This document shows positions 5,033 through 15,630 of a stretch of DNA of 64,000 nucleotides, one piece after another. The stretch's first letter is position 1. The number at the start of each line of letters is the position of its first letter. The DNA comes from a virus: positions 62,001 to 126,000 of IMG/VR virus record IMGVR_UViG_3300025009_000050; one strand, written 5' to 3'. The translations under genes were made by a program, and so were the position numbers. Below the pieces are notes generated by a model. The model saw only the letters and a list, made by a program, of their open reading frames with translations. It was not told the DNA's origin and made no database searches.

Positions 5033-5168
5033 ATCAGGACAGTGTAGTTAAGAGTTACTTCTACATTTAATAGAGTGGTCATGGGTTCGAGTCCCATCAG
5101 AGCAACTGATAGCTCCGTAGCTCAGCTGGTAGAGCACTATGTACTCTTAACGAACAATTCTTCCTGAT
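5033..5168 (+). ncRNA. YrlA-type Y RNA 5 with permuted tRNA-like module
   Basis: ATCAGG/CCTGAT outer stem and a perfect 9-bp GTTAAGAGT/ACTCTTAAC inner helix. The permuted tRNA part has T arm ATGGG-TTCGAGT-CCCAT, acceptor CAGAGC/GCTCCG closed by a short loop (one mismatch), and D arm TAGCTCAGCTGGTAGAGC, the Ala/Thr/Lys type rather than the Leu/Ser type of copies 3 and 4. Confidence 0.85.
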
Positions 5169-5175
5169 ACAATAT

Positions 5176-5315
5176 TATGGGTAGTGTAGCATAGAGTTTC
5201 ATCGAATTGTAATCGAGTGGTCGTAGGTTCGAGTCCTACCAGGGCCTCATCAAAAGGTTCTGTAGCTCAGTTGGTTAGAGCACTAAAAGCTACTCTATGT
5301 GATTATTCTCCCATA
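5176..5315 (+). ncRNA. YrlA-type Y RNA 6 with permuted tRNA-like module
   Basis: TATGGG/CCCATA outer stem and CATAGAGT/ACTCTATG inner helix. The T arm is GTAGG-TTCGAGT-CCTAC, the closed acceptor AGGGCCT/AGGTTCT includes G-U pairs, and the D arm is TAGCTCAGTTGGTTAGAGC. The 5' block reads GTTTCATC instead of GTTACTTC. The anticodon-like segment TTGTAATCGAGTGGTC resembles the 3' half of a tRNA-Thr. Confidence 0.85.
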
Positions 5316-5410: not shown

Positions 5411-5433
5411 TCAAATTATAAGGAGTGACACTA

Positions 5434-12309: not shown

Positions 12310-12885
12310 TTGATTCCTATTGTAATTGAACAGACGATGAATGGTGAGAGGTCTTACGATATCTATTCAAGATTGTTGAAGGATCGCATCATAATCTTAG
12401 GCGGAGAGATTGATGATTATATGGCTAATGCCATAGTTGCTCAGATGTTGTTCCTTGAAAGTGATAATCCAGAAAAAGATATCAGCTTATATATTAATTC
12501 CCCTGGTGGTGTAGTCACTGCTGGAATGGCAATATATGATACTATGCAGTACATTAAAGCTGACGTAGCCACCATATGCGTTGGACAAGCCGCCAGTATG
12601 GGGGCTTTCCTGTTGGCAGCAGGAACCAAGGGTAAGAGATTCTCATTGCCAAGCTCCCGTATAATGATTCACCAGCCCTCAGGCGGGTCACGTGGTCAAG
12701 CTACTGATATTCAGATTCAGGCTGCTGAGATATTACGTATGAAGGACGAACTTAACAGAATTTTATCTGAGAATACAGGCCAACCCTTGGAGAAAGTTCA
12801 AATTGATACTGAGCGTGACTTCTTCATGTCCGCTACTGAATCATTAGCTTATGGACTAATTGATTCTGTAATAAAGAGCAAGTAG
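12310..12885 (+). CDS. clpP: ClpP-like ATP-dependent protease proteolytic subunit
   Basis: TTG 12310; 191 residues, the normal length of mature ClpP. The catalytic triad is intact: S96 in GQAASMGA, H121 in RIMIHQP and D170 in ERDFFMSA. The YINSPGG oxyanion motif, GSRGQATDI handle motif and YGLID end are typical. ClpP forms tetradecamers that degrade proteins fed by ClpX/A/C; no phage Clp ATPase is seen here, so it would use the host unfoldase. No signal peptide or propeptide. It lies inside the small-protein/tRNA zone. Confidence 0.95.
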
Positions 12886-13173: not shown

Positions 13174-13437
13174 ATGGGGGGTATAAGTAACGAAAGTCTT
13201 AGTATAGACGAAATAGTTATTTTTCATAGGACTGAAGGAATCAAAGAAGAACTGCTAGGCAAGGCTTTTATTATAGAAAAAATTAAACCATGTAGAAGAA
13301 CTTGTAGACCTATGGGAGACGATGTATGTTATGGAGTACACATATTTATACGTGGTCTTGTAAGAGAAGACTGTACCTGGTGTTCATGGACTGTGAGAAA
13401 GGCCACGGATGCTGATTCATTAGAAGACTTACTTTAG
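13174..13437 (+). CDS. Small cysteine-containing 'DEIV' family protein
   Basis: ATG 13174 (ATG 13165 is an alternative); 87 residues. ISNESLSIDEIVIFHRTEG, PCRRTCRPMGDDVCYGVHIFI and CTWCSWTVRKA parallel the preceding gene. It ends just before the non-coding RNA at 13460. Confidence 0.62.
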   Translation: MGGISNESLSIDEIVIFHRTEGIKEELLGKAFIIEKIKPCRRTCRPMGDDVCYGVHIFIRGLVREDCTWCSWTVRKATDADSLEDLL

Positions 13438-13459
13438 ATAGTAGATTTGTTAATAATAC

Positions 13460-13789
13460 TAATGAGGGAATGTTGGCTTAGAGGCAGCCATTCGCGAAAG
13501 CGAAGTTGATATCAAAATACTTAACAAAGTATAAGGTATTGACTCATCTAAGGAGTTGCGAGTACGTGAAAGCTACATCATGTAACAAGCATGTATAGAT
13601 ATCGTACAGGGGAAACATACGGAAAACTGTTAGCTGAAAAGAGTTAGTATAGTGACGCGTGATTTAATCAACAGTCAAAGGTTGTTATGAAAGCGGCATA
13701 CTCAAGTATCATTGGGCTCTTGTTAGGTCTAATGGTGCAATGCTATACTAGACCCTCAGAGCATTTGGCGTAATAGCACACCCTCATTA
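13460..13789 (+). ncRNA. 330-nt RNA mimicking the 23S rRNA GTPase-associated centre
   Basis: TAATGAGGG (13460-13468) pairs perfectly with CCCTCATTA (13781-13789). Directly inside, 13469-13492 matches the helix-43 hairpin of 23S rRNA (core TTGGCTTAGA..GCAGCC) at 21 of 24 positions, compared from memory with E. coli; the terminal G-C pair is replaced by A-U. At 13768-13777 GCGTAATAGC is identical to the helix-44 loop. These are the two rRNA hairpins that bind L11 and contact EF-G and EF-Tu. In rRNA they are ~10 bases apart; here ~275 bases lie between, with many hairpins (for example TTCGC-GAAA-GCGAA and GGTCTA/TAGACC). No ORF with a ribosome binding site. Confidence 0.8.
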
Positions 13790-13812
13790 ATATTATAATT
13801 ATAGGAGGTACT

Positions 13813-14064
13813 ATGTTTGAGGTAGACCAGATAGTTACATATAGTGGTAATATAGCTAAAAACTATAATAAACCATGCATAATAGTACATGTTTGTCCAT
13901 GTGGGACCAAGAATTGCGATATTGTTGAATGTGCACACCAGCATGTATTATTAGCAGGAAAATATAGAAAGCATAATAGCTATGGCCCGATATGTTCTAA
14001 TAGATTAAAGAAGTTAAAGAAAGATGCACCCGTAGACAACATAGTAACATCATGGATTGAATAA
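13813..14064 (+). CDS. Small cysteine-containing 'DQIV' family protein
   Basis: ATG 13813 follows TAGGAGGTACT; 83 residues. MFEVDQIVTYSGNI is the clearest family N-terminus. CIIVHVCPCGTKNCDIVEC and a C-terminal YGPICSNRLKKL complete the pattern. It begins 24 bases after the rRNA-mimic RNA. Confidence 0.65.
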   Translation: MFEVDQIVTYSGNIAKNYNKPCIIVHVCPCGTKNCDIVECAHQHVLLAGKYRKHNSYGPICSNRLKKLKKDAPVDNIVTSWIE

Positions 14065-14550: not shown

Positions 14551-15630
14551 ATGATTATCATAAAACAAGATGCTTCAGTAAGAAAGAAATTAGATAGTGA
14601 GAATAGATTCTTATCTATATTCAACTCAGAAAATGGTTCATACTTGCGTACAGGTATCATAGAAAATGGAAAAGATACTGGTGTTAACCCGTTTATGACA
14701 GATTACCCGGAATTACTAGATCTGGGAATCATGGGCCGCTGTAAGAACGCACATTTATGTGATGTTGGGTGTTACCAGGGTAAGAAGTCTGAAGGTGAAA
14801 ATATGTCACTGGAGGATTATAAAACTATAATTGATCAGTTCCATGGTAAGGTGTTCCAGGTTGCACTTGGTGGTGCTGGAAGTCCTGATGAACATGAAAA
14901 CTTTGAAGAGATTTTAAAGTATACAAGGGACTCTGGTGTTATACCTAATTATACCACAAGTGGTATTGGAGTAGATGAGCGCATAGCCCAGTTAACTAAG
15001 CAGTACTGTGGTGCTGTTGCTGTATCATTCTACCGTAAAGAATATACATATAGAGCAATTGATTTATTCCTCCAAGCTGGTTGCAAAACTAATATCCACT
15101 ATGTACTCTCAGAAGATAGCATTGAGGAAGCTACTAATAGGCTTAAACGCAATGCCTTCCCAGCAGGTATTAATGCAATAATCTTTTTGATGCATAAGCC
15201 AGTAGGATGTGGTTCAGATAAGCTTGTACTCAGAGATGAGCAAAAGATTAAAAACTTCTTTAAAGTAGCAATGGACAAACATCCATTTAAAATTGGGTTT
15301 GACAGTTGCTCAGTACCTGGTATACTTAACTATGCTAAGGAATCGGTGTTAGTCGATTCGGTAGATACCTGTGAAGGTGGACGTTTTAGCTGTTATATAG
15401 GCGCTGATATGGTCATGGTACCTTGCAGTTTTGATCAACAACGTAAGTATGGTGTATCACTAAGAGGAAAGACTGTAGAGGAAGCATGGAACTCTGATGA
15501 GTTTAAAGCTTTTCGCAATAAGCTAGTAGAGGCTTGTCCACAATGCCCAAACCATAGTGAATGTATGGGCGGTTGTCCACTTGAGCCATCCATAGTATTG
15601 TGTACCAGTAAGGAAAGGATGATAATATGA
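14551..15630 (+). CDS. Radical SAM protein with SPASM-like C-terminus
   Basis: ATG 14551 after AAGGAGAGGTACAT; 359 residues. The cluster region reads RCKNAHLCDVGCYQG, giving C64-x5-C70-x3-C74 rather than the usual CxxxCxxC. ALGGAGSPDEHENF is the GGE-like motif, and FNxF.. to NIHYVLSE is barrel sequence. The C-terminal Cys set (CEGGRFSC, VPCSF, CPQCPNHSEC, GGCP) is a SPASM-type auxiliary-cluster domain. Such enzymes modify peptides or proteins; the substrate is unknown. It lies 2-3 kb upstream of the TDFVTNSSSS genes, a possible but unproven link. Confidence 0.8.
   Translation: MIIIKQDASVRKKLDSENRFLSIFNSENGSYLRTGIIENGKDTGVNPFMTDYPELLDLGIMGRCKNAHLCDVGCYQGKKSEGENMSLEDYKTIIDQFHGKVFQVALGGAGSPDEHENFEEILKYTRDSGVIPNYTTSGIGVDERIAQLTKQYCGAVAVSFYRKEYTYRAIDLFLQAGCKTNIHYVLSEDSIEEATNRLKRNAFPAGINAIIFLMHKPVGCGSDKLVLRDEQKIKNFFKVAMDKHPFKIGFDSCSVPGILNYAKESVLVDSVDTCEGGRFSCYIGADMVMVPCSFDQQRKYGVSLRGKTVEEAWNSDEFKAFRNKLVEACPQCPNHSECMGGCPLEPSIVLCTSKERMII

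Follow-up and report, generated by a model that had tools for sequence, protein, structure and literature searches.

A free-standing, structured RNA of about 170-450 nt, with a core that adopts the fold of the 23S rRNA domain binding L11 (the three-way junction of the helices H42, H43 and H44), is found in many unrelated phages, and the sequence of this rRNA domain is kept across them together with its secondary-structure and tertiary-pair constraints. That a family of phage RNAs mimicking the GTPase-associated centre (GAC) exists is, in our view, virtually certain; it is widespread, unnamed and, as far as our searches reach, undescribed. The hairpins H43 and H44 of the GAC form the L11-binding site that contacts EF-G and EF-Tu and is the target of thiostrepton. 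The phage RNA probably enables the virus to disturb this L11/factor site of its host or to exploit it, and we consider it moderately probable that the RNA acts in trans, as a decoy or scaffold for the host uL11 and the factors active at this site.

The element in the window

The window (the whole stretch of 64,000 nucleotides analysed here) contains one member of the family, the parts of which are listed in Table 1. It lies in a gene-free interval (13438-13812) between a small phage ORF ending at 13437 and the next one starting at 13813, and the sole ORF overlapping the end of the RNA stretch is antisense and encodes 62 amino acids. The initial annotation, made from the sequence alone, had described a phage RNA copying the GAC, and in this it was correct: the gene-free segment of 330 nt, the perfect closing stem of 9 bp, the match to 23S H43 with the A of the thiostrepton loop (A1067) and the identical H44 loop (GCGTAATAGC at 13768-13777) were all found as stated there. 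The RNA proved to be larger than described, however, being one member of a widespread family, and the supposed single insert of 275 bases consists in fact of two, of 53 and 209 nt. The equivalent of 23S 1079-1090, unnoticed earlier, lies between them, and the GAC copy is therefore more complete than first described.

Table 1 Parts of the GAC-mimicking RNA in the window, with the equivalent 23S rRNA positions (E. coli numbering)
Feature	Position	Strand	Remarks
Whole GAC-mimic RNA	13455..13793	+	Limits from the covariance model; 89.1 bits, E=1.9e-19
H42-equivalent closing stem, 5' strand, TAATGAGGG (23S 1047-1055)	13460..13468	+	9 perfect pairs with 13781-13789
H43 copy, ATGTTGGCTTAGAGGCAGCCAT (23S 1057-1078), including U1060 and A1067	13470..13491	+	21/22 identical to E. 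coli
Insert 1, 53 nt, inside H43 at 1078/1079	13492..13544	+	Site filled in 17/105 members
H43 3' foot and junction, CATCTAAGGAGT (23S 1079-1090), with the C1082-G1086 pair and A1088	13545..13556	+	
Insert 2, 209 nt, non-rRNA arm at 1090/1091	13557..13765	+	Closing helix immediately after U1090
H44 tip, TGGCGTAATAGCACAC, final 14 nt = 23S 1091-1104, A at 1101	13766..13781	+	
H42-equivalent closing stem, 3' strand, CCCTCATTA (23S 1104-1112)	13781..13789	+	Pairs with 13460-13468

If the inserts are omitted, the core of the window RNA (23S 1055-1104) shares 45 of its 50 positions with the bacterial consensus and 43 with E. coli, a likeness far above chance. The fold is more stable than that of dinucleotide shuffles (z = -3.55, 0 of 100 shuffles), and the first insert starts with a GAAA-capped hairpin (TCGC-GAAA-GCGA).

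Distribution among phages

Searching IMG/VR with the H43 motif alone returned 28 contigs, of which one contains a true 23S rRNA (L025), while the others show the phage form or are cut by the contig end. The phage form reads GGAUGUUGGCUUAGARGCAGCCAUCAUYUAARGAGU, followed by a long insert and then by GCGUAAYAGCACAC. The 18-nt distal signature of the family, TTTGGCGTAAYAGCACAC, applied without any requirement on the 5' side, gave at least 120 matches in IMG/VR, and three narrower scans added more. Among the matches listed, 139 were usable, i.e. preceded by at least 450 nt, and 130 of them have a copy of H43 upstream (at most 4 mismatches in 18 positions within the preceding 450 nt), in comparison to none of 695 random 450-nt stretches taken from the same contigs.

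Cultured phages carry the RNA as well. A BLAST search of INPHARED identified it in Serratia phage BF, Cronobacter phage GAP32, Pectobacterium phage CBB, seven Erwinia phages, the Xanthomonas phages XbC2, XaC1 and XacN1, Acinetobacter phage ME3, Aeromonas phage 4_4572, the Pseudomonas phages pf16, UNO-G1W1, Astolliot and Milchi, and Vibrio phage 2.275.O. In pf16 (KU873925) the RNA lies at about 29.42-29.60 kb, on the minus strand. The hosts, where known, are mostly Gram-negative. At the inspected loci the RNA is either unannotated or overlapped merely by a doubtful hypothetical ORF. Across 84,980 species genomes of bacteria and archaea, the exact motif occurs only 18 times; an H43 copy accompanies 13 of these matches, and a further one shows a 3' end specific to a subtype. 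One copy resides on a Methylobacterium plasmid, and none was found in 5,426 E. coli genomes. The RNA thus belongs essentially to phages.

In Pseudomonas phage Astolliot (L156, 2158-2676) a tRNA-Met gene is immediately preceded by a tandem pair of GAC RNAs, one a degenerate type A and the other a type B. In L049 (4720-4948, minus strand) a second copy keeps junction and stems but is devoid of both GAC loops, GUAAUAG being absent; it is possibly a paralogue with a different partner. The member in L057 (1049-1184, minus strand) has a 23S-like H42 (AGACAGCCAGG ... CACTGGCCGAG) and may be the closest to the ancestral capture or, possibly, recaptured from host rRNA.

Conservation of the rRNA fold

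For the constraint statistics we used 95 distinct cores with a mutual identity below 93%. H42, comprising 10 bp, is paired in 83% of cells, compared with 51% in shuffled alignments and 37-50% in slid registers, and it shows 368 double changes against a shuffle maximum of 159. Within H43, the pair 1058:1080 is formed in 100% of the cores, almost always as UA, GC or AU. Positions 1082 and 1086, whose tertiary pair is non-canonical in E. coli, are UA, CG or AU in 98% of the cores (shuffle maximum 65%). These three observations (for H42, outward from 1105) are free of bias from the parser or the search motif.

Invariant positions are U1060, A1084, A1085, A1088, G1071, C1072 and G1087, although the invariance of 1084, 1085, 1087 and 1088 is partly built in, the first-pass parser demanding the junction T.TAA.GA[AG]T. 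In the GAC crystal structures A1088 is the tertiary partner of U1060, and G1071 and C1072 contact H44. Besides the L11-binding junction, the loops 1067-1073 and 1093-1098 are also kept, the statistics for positions 1091-1104 being biased through the distal search motif. Core identity to the bacterial consensus ranges from 78 to 98% across the members (median 90%). About 16% of them have G, C or U in place of A1067, and A1067 and A1096 vary in 11-16%. Position 1101 is A in the family and U in both 23S sequences read (E. coli and Paenibacillus); A1101 is present too in phage loci that were found by the H43 motif alone. The fixed insertion place and A1101 suggest a single capture of one 23S segment.

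The fold is also recovered without reference to rRNA: RNAalifold, applied to alignments of two subtypes, returned H42, H43 and the H44 tip de novo. A covariance model (R1) was built from 12 type-A members of other phages, leaving the window out. It detects the element in the window (Table 1) and almost every other member, even where the arm is unrelated. It also detects the GAC of E. coli 23S rRNA (43 bits, E=5e-8, 407 kb searched), by which phage RNA and rRNA domain are tied together from the phage side too.

Since the positions that are conserved correspond to the core of the domain binding L11, whereas the L10-binding part of H42 keeps its pairing alone, host uL11 would be expected to bind the RNA in trans as it binds rRNA, which from the sequence we judge to be likely.

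The inserted arms

Every member carries an arm at 1090/1091, 56-362 nt in length (56 nt in the short L014 type) and usually exceeding the core. Its closing helix sets in immediately and covaries, 78% of cells being paired at one register in comparison to 40-55% at others. The second arm, placed in H43 at 1078/1079, is present in about 16% of the members, among them the one in the window. The arms vary by subtype, each subtype having conserved motifs of its own: the type A arm (jumbo phages and the window) contains the blocks AGGGGAAG and GACCCUUAGAG and a covarying inner helix, the type B arm (pf16, Astolliot, 4_4572) contains CACCCCGGAAACGGUAAGG. Long and internally covarying as they are, the arms may do the main work. 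One could accordingly imagine the GAC copy as an anchor, which docks on L11 or on the vacant L11/factor site of ribosomes or assembling 50S subunits, with the arm as the effector that blocks or recruits. The constant presence and site of the arm, its covarying closing helix, its length and the subtype-specific motifs are in favour of such a division of labour; on the other hand, the arm differs between subtypes while the core is kept, and many different effectors would be required. We regard this as possible but rather unlikely.

The arms as a whole do not resemble rRNA. A blastn comparison of the inserts with E. coli 16S, 23S and 5S rRNA gave 86 matches against 49-78 in shuffles, the top score being equal. 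The 12-mer of the sarcin-ricin loop, AGUACGAGAGGA, is found exactly in 2 of 153 unique inserts, where 0.005 would be expected. An arm hairpin with the exact AGUACGAGAGGA is present in L215 (2640-3060, on the Methylobacterium indicum plasmid pVL1_2), and one with a single mismatch in L209. However, an AGUAC segment in L143, L089, L064 and L209 is complementary, as read by eye, to an upstream (C)GUACUA, and a long-range helix may be the alternative cause of the sarcin-ricin-like segment. A generic bulged-G hairpin occurs four times in the inserts, against a mean of 0.75 and a maximum of 4, which is no clear enrichment. The idea that these RNAs rebuild more of the factor site than the GAC, some with a copy of the sarcin-ricin loop, and that together with captured L11 they form a miniature site engaging EF-G, EF-Tu, IF2 or RelA in trans, appears quite improbable to us.

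Relation to rRNA and to known RNA families

In view of a core 78-98% identical to the bacterial consensus, one might suspect an ordinary rRNA fragment, host contamination or a decaying rRNA gene, the more so as one INPHARED record, Paenibacillus phage Pd_22F (L154, MZ092003), does hold a whole 23S. This record was rejected as a carrier, since it contains complete copies of 23S and 5S rRNA, which probably derive from assembled host DNA. Against a relict origin of the family speak the complete genomes of isolated phages that carry the RNA, an H42 that covaries and is not host sequence, the constancy of the two insertion places and the rarity of the motif in prokaryotic genomes (just 18 matches, 13-14 of them real). 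Moreover, the Rfam LSU model RF02541 has no match in the window even at E<=10, nor in the carrier loci except for the 23S of Pd_22F. Covariation, the upstream H43 copies in 130 of 139 cases and the non-rRNA inserts rule out relict and contamination, the probability of which we consider vanishingly small.

Compared with the GAC of 23S rRNA (H42-H44, E. coli 1051-1108, RF02541), the phage RNA has the same H43 and H44 loops, the same junction and the same 1060/1088 and 1082:1086 positions, but it is stand-alone and intergenic, has the arm at 1090/1091 and A1101, and is free in the sequence of H42. In the 23S gene H43 and H44 are contiguous, whereas the phage RNA is split at 1090/1091 and, in the window, at 1078/1079, and is flanked by phage ORFs or tRNAs. 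With ribosomal-protein leaders, such as the L10 leader (RF00557), it shares the principle of an RNA copying the protein-binding site of rRNA; unlike these, it has no ribosomal-protein gene downstream, is encoded by phages and copies the whole GAC with its loops. Phages and mobile elements also carry the structured RNAs GOLLD and ROOL, frequently in the vicinity of tRNAs. Structures of GOLLD and ROOL are the subject of PMC12286853. The GAC RNA resembles them in being structured, phage-borne and often near tRNAs, but differs in being smaller, in its rRNA-derived core and in having no Rfam match. The stable RNAs species 1 and 2 of T4 (rnaC, rnaD) likewise are phage RNAs of unassigned role in a tRNA cluster; as relatives they were dismissed, having no GAC elements and a best R1 score of 4.6 bits in the T4 tRNA region.

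At the gathering score, Rfam 15 recognises only tRNAs in the window and the carrier loci, plus the rRNA of Pd_22F, and no prior description of a phage rRNA or GAC mimic was found in the full-text literature (subscription papers and most preprints lie outside its coverage). Two further statements of the initial annotation thereby hold: that the element is not an rRNA fragment, its inserts being no more rRNA-like than shuffles and placed at fixed sites across a large family, and that no phage RNA of this kind has been described, as far as Rfam 15 and the covered literature go. It had also named homologues keeping both hairpins, covariation of the closing stem and a covariance model as ways to check its proposal; the first two are seen across many phages, and the model from 12 other phages finds the window.

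Genomic surroundings

A tRNA lies within 200 nt of the RNA in 40% of the members, as against 20% for positions drawn at random from these loci, and the nearest tRNAs within 1 kb are all on the strand of the RNA (56 of 56). Arrays of tRNA genes are a frequent location, some members lying between tRNAs. Sigma-70-like promoters are not enriched upstream (11 vs 9.8 at random); terminator-like sites were found in 6 of 105 members against 2 expected.

Leaders that mimic rRNA and bind ribosomal proteins are well known, and by this precedent the GAC mimic could act in cis, sensing L11 or the state of a translation factor and regulating the downstream phage gene or tRNA transcript. The elements do occupy 5' intergenic stretches, and in the window a ribosome-binding site follows the RNA. 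The downstream genes, however, are not conserved (for 77 members, the proteins encoded immediately downstream form 72 clusters), a Ribosomal_L11 gene is absent from the nine carrier virus records tested, some members sit between tRNAs and Astolliot has two in tandem. The lack of a conserved downstream gene and of a phage L11 gene favours action in trans over an autogenous leader, and we hold control in cis to be very doubtful.

The window contains further features of interest. A phage Ro60-like protein with TROVE and vWA domains (PF05731, 117 bits) is encoded at 5425-7041 (plus strand), and before it, at 5048-5303 (plus strand), there are two tandem YrlA-like (Y RNA) matches of 42.9 and 39 bits, below the gathering score; gene and matches likely constitute a phage Ro60-Y RNA module. 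Ro60 (TROVE) was rejected as a partner of the GAC RNA: it is encoded by the window phage, yet by just 2 of 18 carriers. A tRNA-like gene with an unreadable anticodon call (two-base 'ac') is located at 10712-10784 (plus strand). The genes of a ClpP-like protease (12310-12885, plus strand) and of a SPASM protein of the radical-SAM type (14551-15630, plus strand) flank the RNA locus, with a few small ORFs in between.

Possible function

For the preferred reading, a trans-acting decoy or scaffold for uL11 and its factors, the following course can be envisaged. The RNA would be made and processed as a discrete transcript and would trap uL11, and it might also engage translation factors or RelA. L11 held by the RNA would leave less of it for ribosomes, or the factor site might be remodelled during infection; as an outcome, RelA/(p)ppGpp signalling could be damped or factor traffic shifted in favour of the phage. 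In E. coli, activation of RelA requires L11 (PMC7058999), and an L11 trap would therefore phenocopy relC and damp the stringent response. That the effect runs via L11 or the stringent response is a tentative proposal, somewhat on the doubtful side. It should also be noted that host ribosomes are abundant, so that an L11 decoy needs high expression, and that the variation of A1067, the A1101 in place of the rRNA U and the missing promoter enrichment count against a decoy or scaffold.

The retention of both loops, beyond the L11-binding junction, leads to the question whether the RNA could be a decoy for another attacker or reader of the GAC, be it RelA, a translational GTPase, an rRNA-modifying or -cleaving defence enzyme or a thiopeptide antibiotic. 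The variability of A1067 and A1096 and the mostly Gram-negative hosts contradict this, and we know of no defence enzyme aimed at the GAC; we consider such a target unlikely. Of the roles envisaged in the initial annotation (titration of L11, binding of translation factors or RelA, an antibiotic or toxin decoy), the antibiotic decoy is the weakest, given that A1067 is exchanged in about one sixth of the members and that the known hosts are mostly Gram-negative.

Implications

Phages carry tRNAs and encode some ribosomal proteins; a widespread free RNA in which a functional centre of rRNA is conserved, its tertiary contacts included, is, as far as our searches reach, not described. Its existence implies that phages exert pressure on L11 or the factor site of their hosts' ribosomes, and it ties infection to the machinery of the stringent response and of translocation. 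This is directly testable, since the RNA is carried by cultured phages whose hosts are non-pathogenic, for example pf16 on Pseudomonas putida. The family moreover represents a natural experiment on which contacts of the GAC are indispensable outside the ribosome.
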